A stretch of DNA of 64,000 nt, taken from positions 372,001 through 436,000 of the forward strand of contig NZ_JAAIYO010000001.1 of assembly GCF_014930455.1 (NCBI RefSeq), in the 5' to 3' direction. Below the pieces are notes generated by a model. It was not told the origin of the DNA and made no database searches. It was given only the letters and a program-made list of their open reading frames with translations. This document shows, piece after piece, positions 33,140-40,930 of this stretch; position 1 is the stretch's first letter, and every line of letters begins with the position of its first letter. Origin of the DNA: Corallococcus soli (lineage in GTDB: Bacteria > Myxococcota > Myxococcia > Myxococcales > Myxococcaceae). Position numbers and translations under genes: made by a program.

Positions 33140-33206
33140 CCGCGTCGCATTGACGCGGATGTGTAGAGCCTGGTGCCCCTGTGAAGCGCTGGCTTCGCAG
33201 GGGCAC
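33140..33206 (+). terminator. Strong Rho-independent terminator (tandem hairpins)
   Basis: Two hairpins lie after the lipoprotein stop. The first has a 7-bp stem (33140-33146/33152-33158). The second has a 15-bp stem with a single G-U pair (33173-33187/33192-33206, loop GCTG) and is followed by TTGTGTTTTCC. Confidence 0.85.
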
Positions 33207-33377
33207 TTGTGTTTTCCGCTGGGTTCGCGGGCGCTCGGTTGGACGCGGTCGTCTCATTGTCTGGACGCCCATCTCCCCTGGAGACGCCCCAGGCTTCCTG
33301 CGATCGCGGGACACCGCGGTGGACGTGCGTACGCGGGTCTCCAGGTGTTGGACACCTTCTTGCTGTGGACGTCGAGC

Positions 33378-35192
33378 ATGCCCTTCCGCCAAAGCCTCTT
33401 CGCGTCGTTGCTGCTCCTGCCGGCGATGTTGTTCGGGCCGAGCGCTTGTCTGCAGATTCCTGAGCTGGAAGCCGACACAACCCAGGATGCTGGAAGCCAG
33501 GACAGCTCCCCTGTCACGGTCAACTGGTTGTCGCCAGGGCCCCCTGGCTTCACCAATGGAACGCTGCAGATCCGGGTGGAGGTCACCGGGCCCGCTCCTG
33601 AGCGCGTGGAGTTGCTGGTGGATGGCGTTCCGGTCGCCCCGCTCTCCGCCCTCCATGCGTTGGATTGGGAGACCTGGCTGATTCCCGAGGGGCCTCATGT
33701 CCTTGCGGTGCGAGCGACTCGGGGGGCGCAGACATTCATGAGTACCGAGCGCACTGTCGTGGTGGATAGGACGCGTCCAAGGATGACCCTCCAGCGCCCT
33801 GCCCACGGCGAAGCCTTTGTTTCACCGGGTGCGGCGATAGAGGCGGCGTTCTCAGAGCCCCTTCTGCCCTCCAGCGTCAGCAGACAGTCCATCCGGGTGA
33901 CCGCGAACTCCGCGGCGGTTGCCGCGGAGGTGTCGCTGTCCGGGGACGGAAAGACACTGACGATTCTTCCTGATGCCCCTCCACCCGTGAACAGTGAGGT
34001 CACGGTGTCGCTTGACCCGACTGTCACCGACCTGGCTGGGAACAGCGTGGATGCGATGTATCAAGAGTGGCGGTGGAGGGTTCCTGCCTACCTCACGGTC
34101 GGAGAGCCGTTGTTCGCGGGGAAGCCTGAGAACAGCTATATCGAAAAGGCATCGCTTCGCGTTGGGGCGGATTCACGCCCCATCGTGGTGTGGTCGCAGC
34201 ATGGCAGTGTCCATGTCAATCGTTGGAGCGGCGAGGCATGGAAAGCTCTTGGGGAGCCACTGAGGAGGGGGGCAACCCACATCGCATGGGATGGCGTTCT
34301 TCAAATAGATCGTGAAGGGCGCCCGCTCGTGATGTGGATGGAGTTTCCCGGAGAGGCTCCGTCCCAGCTCCATGTCCAACGATGGGATGGCGCGGCTTGG
34401 ACGTCCCTCGGGACGTTCCAGACCGCCAGTCTGGGAGGCGGCGCCATCTTTTGGATGGGCTTCAGCAGTGGGGCGAGCGGTGCCCCGATGATTGCATGGC
34501 GGGAAAGCAATTCGACCCAGCACCAGTTCGTGTTTCGCAAGTGGGATGGCAGCGCGTGGGTGGCGGGGGCCGCACCCTTGCCATTGCGGATGAGCACGAC
34601 CATCAACGCCTCGGGGTTTGATCTGGATTCAGCGGGGCGGCCTGTTCTCTCCTTTTCGGAGAATGACTCGCAGGGAGGATTGACGGGTCATGTGGTGAGA
34701 TGGAACGGGTCGGTCTGGGAGGATGTCTCAAGCGGTCTCGCTGGGATTCCCTGGGCCCGTGCAGTCCATCCGGATGGAAGCATCCTCGTGGGTGTCAGCG
34801 CGCTGGTGCAGGGGCAATGGAGGCCGCTCGTCCAGCGCTGGGACGGAAGCGCATGGCTTACCGTGGGAGGCCCTGTCGATGCGGCGCCCAGCGCCAACTC
34901 TCGGACCATTGACTTCCTTGTCCTGGATTCCCAAGGCCTGCCGGTGGTCATGCTCAGGGAAGCGCTTCCTGTTTCAGTGCCCGGCACCTGGACGGGACAG
35001 GTGCGGCGTTGGACTGGAACCCGCTGGGAAGACATTGGTGGAGCCCTGAAAGCGAGCCCTGGCATGTTGAAGAGGGGGTTGCCCTCGTTCGCCCTTGCCG
35101 CTGACGACGAGCCGATCATCGCCTGGCCGGAAAACCCCCATCCGACAGAGAGCACCTGGGACAGCCTCTACGTGTACCGCCTCAACCACTGA
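33378..35192 (+). CDS. Large lipoprotein with Ig-like domain and propeller-like repeats
   Basis: This 604-residue protein has a lipoprotein signal (LLLPAMLFGPSAC, Cys about residue 24). Two Ig-like domains follow, the second of Big_5 type (about 130-235: RPAHGEAFVSPGAAIEAAFSEP). A C-terminal region (about 245-600) has repeats ending in RW-x-G-x-x-W (VNRWSGEAW, VQRWDGAAW, FRKWDGSAW, VRWNGSVW, VQRWDGSAW, VRRWTGTRW), six in all, which suggests a beta-propeller. Function is unknown; surface adhesion or recognition is plausible. Base composition and codon use are noticeably less GC-biased than in the neighbours, which hints at foreign origin or relaxed selection. ATG 33378 starts the signal peptide. 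Confidence 0.7.
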   Translation: MPFRQSLFASLLLLPAMLFGPSACLQIPELEADTTQDAGSQDSSPVTVNWLSPGPPGFTNGTLQIRVEVTGPAPERVELLVDGVPVAPLSALHALDWETWLIPEGPHVLAVRATRGAQTFMSTERTVVVDRTRPRMTLQRPAHGEAFVSPGAAIEAAFSEPLLPSSVSRQSIRVTANSAAVAAEVSLSGDGKTLTILPDAPPPVNSEVTVSLDPTVTDLAGNSVDAMYQEWRWRVPAYLTVGEPLFAGKPENSYIEKASLRVGADSRPIVVWSQHGSVHVNRWSGEAWKALGEPLRRGATHIAWDGVLQIDREGRPLVMWMEFPGEAPSQLHVQRWDGAAWTSLGTFQTASLGGGAIFWMGFSSGASGAPMIAWRESNSTQHQFVFRKWDGSAWVAGAAPLPLRMSTTINASGFDLDSAGRPVLSFSENDSQGGLTGHVVRWNGSVWEDVSSGLAGIPWARAVHPDGSILVGVSALVQGQWRPLVQRWDGSAWLTVGGPVDAAPSANSRTIDFLVLDSQGLPVVMLREALPVSVPGTWTGQVRRWTGTRWEDIGGALKASPGMLKRGLPSFALAADDEPIIAWPENPHPTESTWDSLYVYRLNH

Positions 35193-35362
35193 ATCCCAGT
35201 TCCTCCGCGCACCTACACTGTCGTTCACCGTACTCCCGCCTCACACCGGACACCGACCCCACCCCTGCGTCCCGTCCAGGGAAATCTTGCGAGAACGGGC
35301 ACTTTTTCGGGGACGTGTTTAGATTCGTCCCGCCCCTCCCCTACATGCGAGGCCTCTGCTCC

Positions 35363-35830
35363 ATGAAGAACGCGGTCCTGACATCCCCGGAGGGCGAACC
35401 GACCGCCAGTGGCGGACCCGCCCCCGTGAACTCCAAGAAGCGCGTCCTCGTCGTGGATGACTTCGACGATGCCCGCGAGATGTACGCGGAGTACCTGGAA
35501 TTCTGCGGGTTTGAGGTCGACACCGCCCGCAACGGCCTGGAGGCCGTGGAGAAGGCCCAGGAGGGGGAGCCGGACATCATCCTCATGGACCTGTCCCTGC
35601 CCGTCATGGACGGCTGGGAGGCGACGCGGCGCATCAAGCAGGACACGCGCACCCGCGACATCCCGGTGATGGCCCTCACCGGCCACGTGCTCGCCGGCAA
35701 CGCCGAACATGCCCTGTCCGTGGGCGCGGACGAGTTCGTCGCCAAGCCCTGCCTGCCGCAGGACCTGGAGAATAAGATCCGCAACATGCTCAAACCCAGC
35801 AAGGCCAAGCCCCGCTCGGGTCAGGAGTGA
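35363..35830 (+). CDS. Stand-alone response regulator receiver protein
   Basis: This 155-residue CheY-like receiver has acidic pocket Asp32-Asp33 (VVDDFDD), phospho-acceptor Asp76 (ILMDLSLP), switch Thr106 (ALTGH) and Lys128 (VAKP), all intact. An N-terminal 25-residue tail of low complexity precedes the fold. No output domain is present, so it acts through partners. The start at 35363 is chosen because the in-frame upstream region lacks receiver features. The kinase-NTPase gene begins 119 bp downstream on the same strand. Confidence 0.9.
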   Translation: MKNAVLTSPEGEPTASGGPAPVNSKKRVLVVDDFDDAREMYAEYLEFCGFEVDTARNGLEAVEKAQEGEPDIILMDLSLPVMDGWEATRRIKQDTRTRDIPVMALTGHVLAGNAEHALSVGADEFVAKPCLPQDLENKIRNMLKPSKAKPRSGQE

Positions 35831-35949
35831 CCCGAGCCTGGAGCTCGGAGTGTCCACGGGTGGACACCCGGGTCCACGCTCCTGCTGCTGGCCCACCTCT
35901 CTCCGGCCCCCGGGTTGACCCCCGGACGCGGGATGCGTAGGCAACCCCG

Positions 35950-38900
35950 GTGGGCTCTCCCGCCTCGTCCCCTCCATCCGACGCGTGGACTCCTCCGGAG
36001 GAGTTCGACGAATACCGCATCGTGCGGCCGCTCGGACGGGGGCGCACGGGCCGGGTGTACCTGGCGCACGACACGCTCCTGGAGCGCCCCGTCGCGGTGA
36101 AGTTCATCCCGTCGCTGGGCTCCAACGCGCTGGCGCGCTTCCTGGTGGAGGCCCGCGCCGCGGCCCGCATCCAGCACCCCAACGTTGTCACCCTGTACCG
36201 GGTGGGACAGCTGGAGGACCAGCCGTACCTCATCTCCGAGTTCATCCGGGGCGTCAGCCTGGACCGGCTGGCCCGGCCCGTGTCCTGGGAGCGCGCGCTC
36301 GGCATCGGGCGGGACCTGGCGCGGGGCCTGGGGGCCGCCCACCGCCGGGGCGTGCTCCACCGCGACATCAAGCCCGGCAACGCCGTGCTCACCGAGAGCG
36401 GCGAGGTGAAGCTGCTCGACTTCGGGCTCGCCAAGCTGCTCGACCGCGCCGAAAGCAGCGAGCCCACCGCCCCGCGCGCGCCCATGCCTCCGCCGGAGCT
36501 GCCCGCGGACTGGGACCCCGAAGCGAGCCCCGCCCTGGGGGCCCGGTCGCTGGATGGCGTCTTCCTGCCGTCCCTGCCGCGCGGCTCGCTGGTGGGCACG
36601 CCGTACTACATGTCCCCGGAGGCCTGGGCCGGGGAGGAACTCACCGCGCGCAGCGACGTGTACTCGCTGGGCGTCGTGCTCTACGAGCTGTGCGCGGGCC
36701 GGGGCCCCTTCCGCGACGTGCCGTGGCGCGAGCTGTCCGAGGCCGTGCGCACCCGCGACGTCCGGCCCCTGGCGGAGGTGGCCTCGTCGGTGGATCCCGG
36801 CTTCGCGGCCGCCATCGACAAGTGCCTCAGGCGCGACCCGGCGGAGCGCCACGCGTCCGCCGCGCAGCTGCTCGACGCGCTGGAGGCCCTGACGCGGGAC
36901 GAGGTGCCCGTCGTCGTCCCGGAGGGCAATCCCTACCGCGGCCTCCAGGCCTTCGAGGCCGAGCACCGCTCGCTCTTCTTCGGCCGCCGCCGCGAGCAGC
37001 GCGCCGTGTTGGAGCGGCTCAAGGCGGAGGCCTTCCTGCTGATGACGGGCGACTCCGGCGTCGGCAAGTCGTCGCTGTGCCTCGCGGGCATCCTCCCCGC
37101 CGTGTGCGACGGCGCGCTGGAGGACGGCCGGCGCTGGCGCACCGCGCGGCTCGTGCCCGGACGCAGGCCCGTCTCCGCGCTCGCCGTGGCGCTCGCTCCC
37201 GTGCTGGAGGTGGACGAGGCGCCCCTGGCGGAGACGCTGCGCCAGGACCCCACGTCGCTCGGCCGCCGGCTCCGAGCGAAGCTGGGCACCCAGGGCGGCC
37301 TGCTGCTGTACATGGACCAGTTGGAGGAGCTGGTGACGCTGTCCCCGCCGGAGGAGGCGGCGCTCGCGGGCGCGGCGCTGGGCTCGCTTACAGAAGCGGC
37401 CGGCGGGCTGCGCCTGCTGGCCACCGGCCGCAGTGACTTCCTCACCCGCCTCACCGGTGTGCCCGGCCTGGGGCCGGAGGTGCCGCACGCGCTGTACCTG
37501 CTGCGCGCGCTCACCTCCGAGGAGACGCGCGAGGCCATCGTCGGCCCCGCGCGCGTGAAGGGCGTGCGCTTCGAATCCGAGGCGGTGGTGGACGCGCTCG
37601 TCGCCTCCACGGCGGCCTCCGACGGCGGCCTGCCGCTGCTCCAGTTCGCGCTGGCGGAGCTGTGGGACGCGCGCGACGAGTCCCGGGGCGTGATGACCCA
37701 GGCGGCGCTGGACTCGCTGGGCGGTGTGTCCGGTGCGCTCGCGCGACATGCGGACGCCGCCGTGGCCCGCCTGCTGCCCGACCAGCGCTCGGCGGCGCGC
37801 GGGGTGATGCTGCGCCTGGTGACCCAGGACGGCACCCGCGCGCGCAAGACGGACCGCGAGCTCGTGGGCGACGACCCGCGCTACCGCGCCGCGCTGGAGG
37901 CCCTGGTGCGCGCGCGCCTGCTCGTCGCCCGTGAAGGGGAGGGCGGCACCGCGTACGAGCTGGCCCATGAGGCGCTCCTCACCGGGTGGACCACGCTGGC
38001 CCGCTGGCTGGTGGAGGCAGGCGAGCGCCGCGAGGTGCAGGCCCGGCTGGAGGCCGCGGCCGCGCAGTGGGAGCGCCTGGGCCATGCGCGCGAGTCCCTC
38101 TGGGGCCCCCGCCAGCTCGCGGAGACCGGGGTGCTGGAGCCCTCTGAACTCACCCGGCGCGAGCAGGCCTTCCTGGAGGCCTCGCGCCGCACCGGCGTGC
38201 GCAGCCGGCGCCTGAAGCAGGGCCTGGCGCTGGGCTTCCTCGTGTCCCTGGCCCTGGTGTACCTGGGCCTCCAGTGGCGCGAGCGCCGCATCCTGGACGG
38301 GCGCGTGCGCGCCGAGCTGGGCGCGGCCACCACGGAGCTGGGCGCCGTGCGCGCTGAACGCGACGCGCTCCGGGCCGAGCGCGCCGAGGCCTTCCGCCTC
38401 TACGACACCGGCCACAAGGCGGACGGGGACCGCAACTGGGCGAAGGCCACGGGGCACGCGACCCAGCTGGCCCACCACTTCGACGTCGTGGCGGACCGGC
38501 TGGAGCGCGCGCTGGCCCTGGCCCCCGGCCGCGAAGACGTGCGCGACACGCTGGCGGACTTCCTCTACGAGCGCGCCCTGTGGGCCGAAAGCGAGCGCGA
38601 GCCCGTGCTGCCCGCGCTCATCCAGCGCATGCGCCTCTACGACAGCGACGGCACCCGCTGGCGCGACTGGAACGCGCCCGCGCGCCTGTCTTTGGACACG
38701 GACGCGCCTGGCGCCTCCGTGGAGCTGCGCCCCCTGACCCGCGAGCCCGGCGGCCCGGAGGTCGCGGGCGAGCCCGTGCCTGCCGCCAGCGCGGCCCCCT
38801 TGAGCGACGTCGTCCTGCCTCCCGGCCCCTACCGGCTCACCGTGCGGGCCCCGGGCCGCGAGGAGGCGGTGCAGCCCCTGCTCCTGCAGCGCGGCGAAGC

Positions 38901-39774
38901 GCGCCGCGTCGTCCTGCCGCTGCCCCGCGCGGGCGCGCTCCCGGCGGGCTTCGCCTACGTGCCTCCGGGCGAGGTGCGCTTCGGCAGCGCCGCGGAGGCC
39001 AGCGTGCGCGACTTCTTCAACGCCGTGCCCCTGCACCCGGTCTCCGTGCCGGGCTTCCTCATCGCCCGCCACGAGACGACGTTCGCGGACTGGCTCGCGT
39101 ACCTGGAGGCCCTGCCCGCCGAGGAGCGCGCCCGGCGCCAGCCTCGCGTGGGCACGGGCGGCTATGCCGGGGTGCTCGCGCTGGAGCCGGAGGCCGGTGG
39201 TTGGAAGCTGCGCTTCCAGCCGGGCGGCGTGCTCTACACCGCGAAGAGCGGCGAGCCCCTGCGCTACGCCCGGCGGACGCTGCGCGCGGAGCAGGACTGG
39301 CGGCGCTTCCCGGTGAGCGGCATCTCCTTCACCGACGCGGAGGCCTACGTGGCCTGGCTGTCCACGTCCGGCCGCGTGCCCGGGGCGCGGCTGTGCTCGG
39401 AGCTGGAGTGGGAGCGGGCCGCTCGCGGCGTGGACGGCCGCGAGTACCCCCACGGCAACCGGCTGGGCCCGGACGAGGCCAACGTGGACACCACCTACGG
39501 CAAGGACCCGGGCGGCTTCGGCCCGGACGTCGTGGGCAGCCACCCCGCGTCCCGCAGCCCCTTCGGCGCGGACGACATGGCGGGCAACGTGTGGGAGTGG
39601 GCGCGCTCGTGGCTGGAGCCCGGCCGCCCGGTGGCGCGCGGCGGCAGCTATTCGTTCGCCGTGACGTCCGCGCGCTCCACCAACCGCGAGCTGCCGGAGG
39701 CCTCCATGCGCGACGTCGCGGTGGGCCTGCGCGTGTGCGCGGACCTGCCTCCGTCCGCGGTGCCGGGGCAGTGA
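35950..39774 (+). CDS. Ser/Thr protein kinase - nSTAND NTPase - FGE-like fusion protein
   Basis: This 1274-residue protein has a protein kinase domain (about 20-320): GRGRTGRV loop, Lys51 in VAVKF, HRDIKPGN (137-144) and DFG 157-159. The activation segment is stretched by a Pro-rich insert of about 35 residues before SPE near 224. A STAND-type NTPase follows with Walker A GDSGVGKSS (367-375) and helical repeats to about 750. A transmembrane helix is near 758-778. A PEGA-like module covers about 915-985. A C-terminal FGE-like (SUMF1) domain runs from about 1000 to 1264. The FGE part lacks the two catalytic Cys of true formylglycine enzymes. The protein is probably a membrane sensor kinase. The GTG start is taken at 35950. 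Confidence 0.85.
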   Translation: MGSPASSPPSDAWTPPEEFDEYRIVRPLGRGRTGRVYLAHDTLLERPVAVKFIPSLGSNALARFLVEARAAARIQHPNVVTLYRVGQLEDQPYLISEFIRGVSLDRLARPVSWERALGIGRDLARGLGAAHRRGVLHRDIKPGNAVLTESGEVKLLDFGLAKLLDRAESSEPTAPRAPMPPPELPADWDPEASPALGARSLDGVFLPSLPRGSLVGTPYYMSPEAWAGEELTARSDVYSLGVVLYELCAGRGPFRDVPWRELSEAVRTRDVRPLAEVASSVDPGFAAAIDKCLRRDPAERHASAAQLLDALEALTRDEVPVVVPEGNPYRGLQAFEAEHRSLFFGRRREQRAVLERLKAEAFLLMTGDSGVGKSSLCLAGILPAVCDGALEDGRRWRTARLVPGRRPVSALAVALAPVLEVDEAPLAETLRQDPTSLGRRLRAKLGTQGGLLLYMDQLEELVTLSPPEEAALAGAALGSLTEAAGGLRLLATGRSDFLTRLTGVPGLGPEVPHALYLLRALTSEETREAIVGPARVKGVRFESEAVVDALVASTAASDGGLPLLQFALAELWDARDESRGVMTQAALDSLGGVSGALARHADAAVARLLPDQRSAARGVMLRLVTQDGTRARKTDRELVGDDPRYRAALEALVRARLLVAREGEGGTAYELAHEALLTGWTTLARWLVEAGERREVQARLEAAAAQWERLGHARESLWGPRQLAETGVLEPSELTRREQAFLEASRRTGVRSRRLKQGLALGFLVSLALVYLGLQWRERRILDGRVRAELGAATTELGAVRAERDALRAERAEAFRLYDTGHKADGDRNWAKATGHATQLAHHFDVVADRLERALALAPGREDVRDTLADFLYERALWAESEREPVLPALIQRMRLYDSDGTRWRDWNAPARLSLDTDAPGASVELRPLTREPGGPEVAGEPVPAASAAPLSDVVLPPGPYRLTVRAPGREEAVQPLLLQRGEARRVVLPLPRAGALPAGFAYVPPGEVRFGSAAEASVRDFFNAVPLHPVSVPGFLIARHETTFADWLAYLEALPAEERARRQPRVGTGGYAGVLALEPEAGGWKLRFQPGGVLYTAKSGEPLRYARRTLRAEQDWRRFPVSGISFTDAEAYVAWLSTSGRVPGARLCSELEWERAARGVDGREYPHGNRLGPDEANVDTTYGKDPGGFGPDVVGSHPASRSPFGADDMAGNVWEWARSWLEPGRPVARGGSYSFAVTSARSTNRELPEASMRDVAVGLRVCADLPPSAVPGQ

Positions 39775-39779
39775 GCACC

Positions 39780-39825
39780 ACCGGACGGTAGAACCCCTGG
39801 AGAACGCCGGGGTTCGCCCTCCGGT
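39780..39825 (+). terminator. Possible two-tier terminator hairpin after the kinase gene
   Basis: An outer 6-bp stem (ACCGGA 39780-39785 / TCCGGT 39820-39825) and an inner 7-bp stem (GAACCCC 39791-39797 / GGGGTTC 39809-39815) begin 6 bp after the stop. There is no T run, so Rho-independent termination is uncertain. Confidence 0.4.
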
Positions 39826-39961
39826 CTGCTGCAAGTGAAAGCCATTGGACGCTGCAAGTGCCCGGCGGGGCCTTCAGCGGTTGCCGCTCCCCGTTGCCGG
39901 ACGGACCTTGTCACCTGAAGCACGGTGCGGGGTCGGGGTCGGGCAGGGAAGGGGCATCCAG

Positions 39962-40930
39962 ATGAGGACGTTGCAGCGAGTGGTCGCGGCGTGTCTTGCC
40001 GTCGTGGCGGTGGGCTGTGGCACGGAATCGTCGGAGCCCGAGGCTCCGTCCCTGCGCACGCAGGTGGCGGAATTGGCGTCGCCCAACGGGCGCAACCTGA
40101 ATGGTCGCAACCTGAATGGTCGCAACCTCAACAACACGGAGCTGGGCGGCATGCTGGTGTCCGTGGCCTACGCGGGCGCCCAGTCCGTCAGCGGCAAGGC
40201 GCTGAGCAACGTGCGGCTGCAGGGCTCGGTGTTCGTCGGGCTCGACGGCGCCAACCCCGTGACGGGCACCAGCTTCACCGGCGCGCGCTTCGTCGGGACG
40301 CTGGGGGACGGCTCCACCCTGCCCCTGCGCGTGGACAGCATCACCCCGGGCACCGGCGTGGACAGCGACCTGTGGTCCTACCGTGTCTCCTACCAGGGCA
40401 GCGACGGCGGCTGGCGCCCGGTGTGCCAGGACTCGAGCGGCGCGGCGGCCTCCGCCATCGCCGTGGCCGGCCGCTGGGACTACCGCCAGGGCGTGGAAGG
40501 GGGCGGCGCGAAGATCAACGACGCTGGGGCCTTCACCTTCGCCTGCGAGGGCGCCGCCATCGCGAAGTGCATGCACTTTGGCTACAAGCCCTGGGCCACC
40601 GCCGCCAACGGCGAGAGCCTGGCGGGCCACCACCAGGCCTGCACCCGGATGGTGCGCGCGGACTTCTGCGGCGACGGCGTCTCCCACACCACCGACGGCC
40701 AGTGGGTCAACCTCTTCGACGCCGCGGGCGTCCAGGGCGACACCGAGTCCTGGACCACGGAGGCGGAGTGGAACGAGGGCGGCGCCCGCTGCTTCACCAG
40801 TGAAACGCGCGCCCAGGCGCCGGTGACGTGCGCGAACCCCACCACCCTCGCCAACTGCGGCGACACCACCCATTTCCAGTCCGGCACCCGCCTCATCAGC
40901 GAGACGCCGTACGGCACCAGCGGTTTGTAA
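39962..40930 (+). CDS. ADYC-domain lipoprotein with N-G-R-N-L repeats
   Basis: This 322-residue protein has a lipoprotein signal (VVAVGCG, Cys about residue 20), a short tandem NGRNL repeat (about 42-57) and a C-terminal ADYC-type region. That region has the typical RMVRADFCGDGVSHTTDG (about 232-249) and many cysteines. The ADYC domain is found mainly in myxobacterial secreted proteins and has unknown function. It probably lies on the cell surface. ATG 39962 begins the lipoprotein signal; the upstream frame is not signal-like. Confidence 0.8.
   Translation: MRTLQRVVAACLAVVAVGCGTESSEPEAPSLRTQVAELASPNGRNLNGRNLNGRNLNNTELGGMLVSVAYAGAQSVSGKALSNVRLQGSVFVGLDGANPVTGTSFTGARFVGTLGDGSTLPLRVDSITPGTGVDSDLWSYRVSYQGSDGGWRPVCQDSSGAAASAIAVAGRWDYRQGVEGGGAKINDAGAFTFACEGAAIAKCMHFGYKPWATAANGESLAGHHQACTRMVRADFCGDGVSHTTDGQWVNLFDAAGVQGDTESWTTEAEWNEGGARCFTSETRAQAPVTCANPTTLANCGDTTHFQSGTRLISETPYGTSGL
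40085..40129 (+). repeat. 15-bp tandem repeat (3 copies) in the ADYC gene
   Basis: The unit AATGGTCGCAACCTG occurs three times with one to two mismatches and encodes N-G-R-N-L. The frame is kept, so copy-number variants would be tolerated. Confidence 0.85.

Follow-up and report, generated by a model that had tools for sequence, protein, structure and literature searches.

We have analyzed a window of 64,000 nucleotides from the genome of Corallococcus soli (RefSeq assembly GCF_014930455.1, contig NZ_JAAIYO010000001.1, positions 372,001 to 436,000), which lies on contig C1 of a 9.4 Mb genome. Our subject is a gene at 35950-39774 of the window on the plus strand, identified from the list of open reading frames (ORFs), Pfam matches and alignment, that has a GTG start and encodes a protein of 1274 amino acids. 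Along the chain this receptor has a Hanks-type kinase, an nSTAND1 NTPase, a membrane helix, a helical and beta part, and a domain with the fold of formylglycine-generating enzyme (FGE). An earlier note, made from the sequence alone, had placed a kinase, a STAND NTPase, a membrane helix and an FGE-like domain in one chain of this length, and the ORF, the Pfam matches and the hydropathy all bear this out. The receptor gene is preceded directly by a gene for a CheY-like receiver (REC) and followed by one for an exported lipoprotein with an ADYC domain. We consider that the receptor is probably a single-pass receptor kinase belonging to a myxobacterial signaling module, i.e. an ordinary receptor rather than an anti-phage weapon. 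The observed basis of the module is the domain order, the intact motifs, the loss of the FGE cysteines, the predicted FGE fold, the conserved helix and the conserved partner genes.

For the receptor alignment, 117 kinase-STAND-FGE reading frames including that of the window were reduced to 98 distinct receptors by collapsing those with identical last 1000 residues. These comprise 38 close receptors (group A, at least 65% identity), 7 intermediate (group B) and 53 distant ones. The Ser/Thr kinase domain occupies residues 20-315 (36007-36894, plus strand). It matches the Pfam Pkinase profile in two stretches, the best being residues 22-169 (E = 8.8e-42), and its closest solved structure is PknB. 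The VAIK lysine, the alpha-C glutamate, the HRD and DFG motifs, the asparagine and the PE are all present, and are invariant or nearly so across the 98 receptors. None of these essential residues is missing, and the receptor is by its motifs an intact Hanks-type Ser/Thr kinase for which phosphotransfer is predicted. The activation segment from DFG to GT (residues 157-217; 36418-36600, plus strand) is seen in the alignment to carry an insert that includes SLDGVFLPSLP. The DFG-to-GT distance is 59 residues in the window receptor and 55-61 in all 38 of group A, compared with 22-23 in 27 of the 53 distant receptors; others of the distant set are longer. The activation-loop insert remarked upon in the earlier note is therefore real. 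Two receptors that have a kinase, a hydrophobic helix and an FGE fold but no STAND domain (L153, at C3:993191-995926 of the host genome G000, and L218) have very long inserts in the activation loop.

The nSTAND1 NTPase extends over residues 328-713 (36931-38088, plus strand). It is assigned by the profile match (PF20703, E = 4.2e-98) together with Walker A and Walker B motifs, whose residues are intact in the window receptor and invariant or nearly so in the alignment of 98. As far as sequence can tell, ATP-driven oligomerization is consistent with such an intact STAND module. A single transmembrane helix follows at about residues 758-776 (38221-38277, plus strand), located by hydropathy and positively charged on its N-terminal side. 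The hydrophobic segment is above the cut-off in 90 of the 98 receptors, and is preceded by a strongly basic stretch. The mean net charge is about +5 to +6 before the helix and +0.2 to +1.9 after it. This positive-inside bias and the hydrophobic helix lead to the prediction that the FGE-fold domain lies outside the inner membrane, i.e. that the kinase and NTPase are cytoplasmic and the FGE-fold domain periplasmic.

Beyond the helix is a middle part (residues 831-985; 38440-38904, plus strand) that is predicted to be periplasmic and comprises helices and then a beta region, as delineated by an AlphaFold2 model and by the ratio of nonsynonymous to synonymous substitution rates (dN/dS). The C-terminal FGE-fold, or C-type-lectin-like, domain matches the Pfam FGE-sulfatase profile over residues 1003-1262 (38956-39735, plus strand; E = 6.9e-31). 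Structure prediction, which the earlier note had suggested as a check, supports the fold. The AlphaFold2 model of residues 831-1274 has a mean predicted local distance difference test score (pLDDT) of 83.9, and its best solved matches by Foldseek include CalU17, FGE, EgtB, SUMF2 and PvdO.

The C-terminal segment of the domain reads RGGSYSF...GLRVC. In true FGE the catalytic cysteine pair follows the RGGS. None of the 98 receptors has a cysteine at either of the catalytic positions, and the CxxxxC pattern occurs there in no row of the alignment. The receptors thus lack the cysteines that form formylglycine, as the earlier note had claimed for the window receptor, and an intact pair is found in 0 of 98. 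The loss is common in related proteins. Among 102 related FGE-domain segments an RGGS-type motif is present in 78 and absent in 24, and of the 78 only L042, our positive control, carries the catalytic pair after the motif. The corresponding FGE alignment combined the window receptor with 58 of these 102 candidate segments, three of which had been lengthened. In its FGE part the window receptor has two cysteines only, C1149 and C1263, which lie away from the catalytic positions and are present in every one of the 98 receptors. They may form a structural disulfide, and two invariant cysteines fit with an oxidized periplasmic domain. Given the absence of the catalytic cysteines, the domain is unable to use the known cysteine chemistry. 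A binding domain is the best reading of its sequence, in keeping with the suggestion of the earlier note that it more likely binds a ligand.

The CheY-like response regulator upstream (35315-35830, plus strand; Pfam Response_reg, E = 3.6e-27) has a receiver domain and no output domain. A search for a co-conserved response regulator, also suggested by the earlier note, was successful. A receiver gene lies on the same strand no more than 2.5 kb upstream of the receptor in 37 of the 38 loci of group A and all 7 of group B (44/45). The remaining group A locus had too little flank, and in a longer region of that genome (L139) the receiver is found 1.7 kb upstream. The acidic pocket, the phosphoacceptor aspartate, the Thr/Ser and the lysine of the receiver are kept in 44-45 of 45 sequences. 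Group A neighborhoods are largely syntenic, so group B provides the stronger evidence for a partnership. Group B, as seen at L150 and L155, keeps the receptor, REC and ADYC genes, and the other genes of the group A block that we queried were not found beside them. Of the 53 distant receptors, 23 are preceded by an FHA-sigma54 activator gene and 1 by a receiver gene, and flank is lacking in 2. No output gene was seen upstream of the other 27 within flanks of 1.6 to 8 kb; one of these, L192, has an FHA-sigma54 gene downstream. The type of output largely tracks the receptor clades, and its states form large clades on the tree.

Between the regulator and receptor genes there is a perfect inverted repeat GTGTCCA-N4-TGGACAC (35850-35867). 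Its core TGTCC...GGACA is present in all 15 close homologues aligned, and the exact pattern occurs at one place in the genome. It is possibly an operator or attenuator. A block containing TTGACC is conserved among homologues just before the receptor start (35913-35945), and the two elements could possibly be a promoter and operator belonging to the receptor itself.

The ADYC gene (39962-40930, plus strand; PF20032, E = 2.3e-55) encodes a signal ending in LAVVAVGC, read by eye, and three exact NGRNL repeats that follow the lipobox and are invariant in four aligned orthologues. The lipobox was rejected as a general feature of ADYC proteins, being found by rule in 21 of 71 (controls: sigma54 0/49, kinase frames 1/211). 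A hydrophobic stretch is present upstream in 56 of the 71 (controls: sigma54 13/49, kinase frames 10/211). The open-licence literature yielded no paper on the ADYC domain, the papers matching 'ADYC' concerning other subjects as judged from their listing.

The adjacency of ADYC genes to kinases was examined in 22 of 96 Myxococcaceae genomes, chosen mainly for their few contigs and not including the host. For 87 of the 91 ADYC matches in these genomes a Hanks kinase lies no more than 3 kb away, and 75 of the 87 adjoin a kinase-STAND-FGE receptor. Twenty lie beside the orthologue of our receptor by coordinates (20/20 near a kinase). The other 71 were fetched with flanks of about 6 kb, and 67 have a kinase within 3 kb; this is kinase-STAND-FGE in 55, kinase-FGE in 1 and neither in 11. 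A sigma54 activator is present no farther than 4 kb away in 9 of the last 11. No kinase at the required distance was found at L168, L205, L223 and L227, of which L205 and L223 are short frames. As background, about 11% (10.9%) of contig C1 is within such a distance of a kinase, based on 18 kinase positions with two C-lobe-only matches left out. Another background sample of 20 regions of 20 kb gave 0 of 60 sites near a kinase in a positive-controlled search, and neither this zero nor the Fisher value was used. A count of 89/93 was likewise set aside in favor of the ADYC-centered set because it included regions fetched on account of their kinase. The host itself has five ADYC genes. Four adjoin four of its five kinase-FGE genes, and the fifth abuts another kinase gene that is itself beside an FHA-sigma54 gene, so that 5 of 5 lie by a Hanks kinase. 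ADYC genes beside a kinase with neither STAND nor FGE parts and with a sigma54 activator no more than 4 kb away were noted at L158, L200, L203, L206, L209, L217, L222, L224, L225 and L226; the L158 kinase has a long C-terminal part that looks TPR-like by eye.

Outside the Myxococcaceae a STAND kinase is present in 5 of 12 ADYC regions. Of the other seven, six (L229, L230, L231, L233, L237 and L238) are cut off by a contig end that leaves about 2 kb or less to one side of the ADYC domain, and L232, with 4-6 kb to either side, shows no STAND kinase. Across 174 Myxococcota genomes, ADYC occurs together with a strong receptor match (E < 1e-100 over residues 320-1274, our cut-off) in 72 and by itself in 2 (G102 and G114). 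The receptor occurs by itself in 0, and the remaining 100 were scored as having neither. Matches in a weaker range (1e-60 to 1e-77), seen in 24 genomes, were treated as absence of the receptor. Phylogenetic dependence is strong here, as 65 of the 72 belong to one family. A mirror-tree comparison of 75 receptor-ADYC pairs, with one ADYC per receptor, gave correlations of 0.30-0.48 between ADYC and the receptor segments. The value for the FGE domain, 0.33, is greater than all of 500 shuffles (maximum 0.19), which were performed for this segment only.

The nearest records are a Myxococcaceae metagenome-assembled genome (95%) and a Corallococcus (89%). An orthologue, defined by at least 65% identity over residues 320-1274, is present in 62 of 96 Myxococcaceae genomes including the host, which excludes chance. 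The 62 come from seven genera, which have 63 genomes in the set. Among the near genera the locus is largely syntenic, and our judgement of vertical descent rests on synteny and identity. Of 22 orthologue loci that were compared, all 22 have the receiver gene and 21 the ADYC gene close to the receptor. A TonB-dependent receptor, a HIT protein and an efflux system are common to many loci though not all, some loci being cut by a contig end or by the end of the fetched stretch. Many Myxococcaceae genomes have several receptor copies. The host paralogues are two further kinase-STAND-FGE genes, one kinase-FGE gene without STAND and one distant kinase-FGE gene on contig C23. The last (L159; 5299-8487, minus strand) encodes a kinase-helix-FGE protein of another type, its kinase match being 27% identical.

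Pairwise dN/dS values against seven near relatives, computed for five segments of the receptor, have a mean below 1 in every segment. They are 0.01-0.08 for the STAND domain, 0.05-0.16 for the kinase and 0.15-0.34 for the FGE fold. The helix and coil (0.46-0.69) and the middle part (0.49-0.88) evolve fastest. No hypervariable sensor is visible in these segment averages, in which single fast sites are still possible.

Three other observations were made in passing. Antisense to the receptor is an ORF of 1337 codons (35821-39834, minus strand), which we read as a mirror ORF, as one would expect where coding DNA is very GC-rich. At 33150-35192 is a predicted protein with Big_5 and BNR-like matches. 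Its identity to the corresponding proteins of six near relatives (L021, L023 and L131-L134) is only 29-46%, at a place where the neighbors are 70-98% identical. A record titled Comamonas sp. (L022, BNCN01000008.1) contains much of the Myxococcaceae block with a receptor identity of 75%, and its name looks wrong.

How might such a receptor work? The N-terminal kinase and NTPase would be cytoplasmic. The FGE-fold domain would be periplasmic and would bind a ligand there, possibly the exported ADYC protein or something that ADYC presents. The binding signal would pass through the helix and juxtamembrane coil to the STAND NTPase, which would exchange nucleotide and cluster the receptors. Once clustered, the kinase domains would phosphorylate one another within the long activation loop and would then act on the neighboring output, the CheY-like receiver here and an FHA-sigma54 activator in the paralogous clades. 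A more specific form of this mechanism has ADYC proteins as dedicated extracytoplasmic ligands or co-receptors of myxobacterial kinases with a STAND switch between membrane and kinase, and an output exchanged between receiver and FHA-sigma54 activator, making a three-part, inflammasome-like pathway. We offer that form tentatively, and think it may well be wrong.

A number of results weigh against these proposals. The hydrophobic segment is below the cut-off in 8 of 98 receptors, in-frame stops are present in 3 of the 62 orthologue matches (G039, G055 and G061), and STAND-less receptor paralogues exist, so the NTPase is not always needed. There is no ADYC neighbor at the host kinase-FGE gene on C23 or at the orthologue L149. 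In 11 of the 71 ADYC regions and at one host locus the kinase close by lacks both STAND and FGE fold, which indicates that ADYC is not tied to FGE receptors. The FGE-specific part of the mirror-tree correlation is 0.06, while the kinase domain has the largest partial value at 0.29; the partials in the distant group are 0.14 for FGE and 0.28 for the kinase. Contact between ADYC and the FGE domain is not supported by these values, and the structure model of ADYC, made from four sequences, has a low pLDDT of 36.9. The C23 gene and the kinase partial correlation count against an ADYC-FGE pairing, and slightly lower the odds that ADYC is the dedicated ligand.

It is possible, though in our view unlikely, that the receptor and ADYC are merely co-inherited neighbors, where ADYC has an independent function in the envelope and the FGE fold binds a cell-envelope polymer. 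The lack of an FGE-specific mirror-tree signal, the lectin-like nature of the fold and the synteny of much of the group A neighborhood are all in accord with this. Yet ADYC adjoins Hanks kinases at many separate loci, whether or not these kinases have STAND and FGE parts, and its co-occurrence with the receptor at the genome level is nearly perfect. The presence of CalU17, EgtB, OvsA and PvdO beside FGE among the structural matches raises the further idea that the domain is a catalyst of another kind, like EgtB, PvdO or CalU17, and that the kinase regulates it. We consider this very improbable, since a domain that is fused to a kinase and separated from it by a membrane helix is more suggestive of a sensor.

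The earlier note had also drawn a link to conflict systems. Kaur et al. (2021, PMC8195603, section 7) describe STAND-FGS systems of counter-invader type, in which STAND modules (nSTAND1 included) are joined to FGE-fold domains with S/T/Y kinases among the N-terminal partners, and in which the FGE-fold domains sense inside the cell and are often diversified by a reverse transcriptase. A receptor of this class would bind an invader molecule by its FGE fold, oligomerize through its NTPase and trigger a protective response by its kinase. Our receptor has the catalogued combination, a STAND-FGE fusion with an N-terminal effector or adaptor, and it occurs in several copies in many genomes. It also has PADLOC matches to PD-T4-6, mad6, MkoA and the kinase model C3a189, but these sit in the kinase part, C3a189 alone extending to residue 399. 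The other properties of the class are not seen. The FGE-fold domain is placed in the periplasm rather than inside the cell, by a prediction from helix and charge bias, and its mean dN/dS is well below 1, though single sites could be fast. The neighborhood is conserved, with an orthologue in nearly all genomes of the seven genera. The sole RVT_1 match of the host genome is on contig C11 while the window is on C1, so no diversity-generating reverse transcriptase is linked. PADLOC applied to seven neighbors gave no match for six, and the seventh, the receiver protein, gave weak matches to parts of the SduA, PDC-M60B and PD-T4-6 models; none is a convincing defense gene. The link is therefore not borne out by topology, dN/dS, synteny, the reverse transcriptase search or PADLOC, and we regard a counter-invader function as improbable.

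A signaling receptor kinase, the interpretation we prefer, invites comparison with known proteins. Like SUMF1, bacterial FGE and SUMF2, a paralogue that is not known to have FGE activity, the window receptor has the FGE fold, but unlike FGE it lacks the catalytic cysteine pair. It resembles Hanks kinases of the PknB/StkP type in a kinase domain closest to PknB and in the single-pass design that PknB has, but there is no PASTA domain among its Pfam matches and it has STAND and FGE-fold parts instead. With the STAND-FGS systems of PMC8195603 it shares the fusion of an nSTAND1-type STAND to an FGE fold with a kinase at the N-terminus; it differs in the helix between NTPase and FGE fold, in the lack of a linked retroelement or convincing defense gene in our searches, and in its partner genes, REC or FHA-sigma54 together with ADYC. 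From Planctomycetota, Ser/Thr kinases that span the membrane once and carry a sulfatase-modifying-factor domain in the periplasm have been described (PMC11032199). The window receptor has the same arrangement of cytoplasmic kinase, single helix and predicted periplasmic FGE-fold domain, but with nSTAND1 between kinase and membrane and with conserved partner genes. The architecture therefore falls within published types, i.e. STAND-FGS with kinases and single-span kinases with a periplasmic FGE-type domain. The new part is the gene context, a recurring module of receptor, ADYC and output, of which we found no description in the open-licence literature on myxobacterial FHA, FGE and kinase links, surveyed mostly by listing.

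For many of the Ser/Thr kinases of Myxococcus xanthus we know of neither input nor output. That organism has 99 such kinases of the Hanks class, according to PMC11032199. The repeating gene module provides a testable set of input, receptor and output, and a first lead on the ADYC proteins. Receptors with and without STAND, and with REC or FHA-sigma54, form a natural comparison by which to see what a receptor kinase gains from a STAND switch, and the STAND-less L153 and L218 are a natural test of the contribution of that domain. If ADYC proteins were indeed dedicated ligands, bacteria would have a receptor pathway of three parts, similar to an inflammasome, by which to sense signals from outside the cell.

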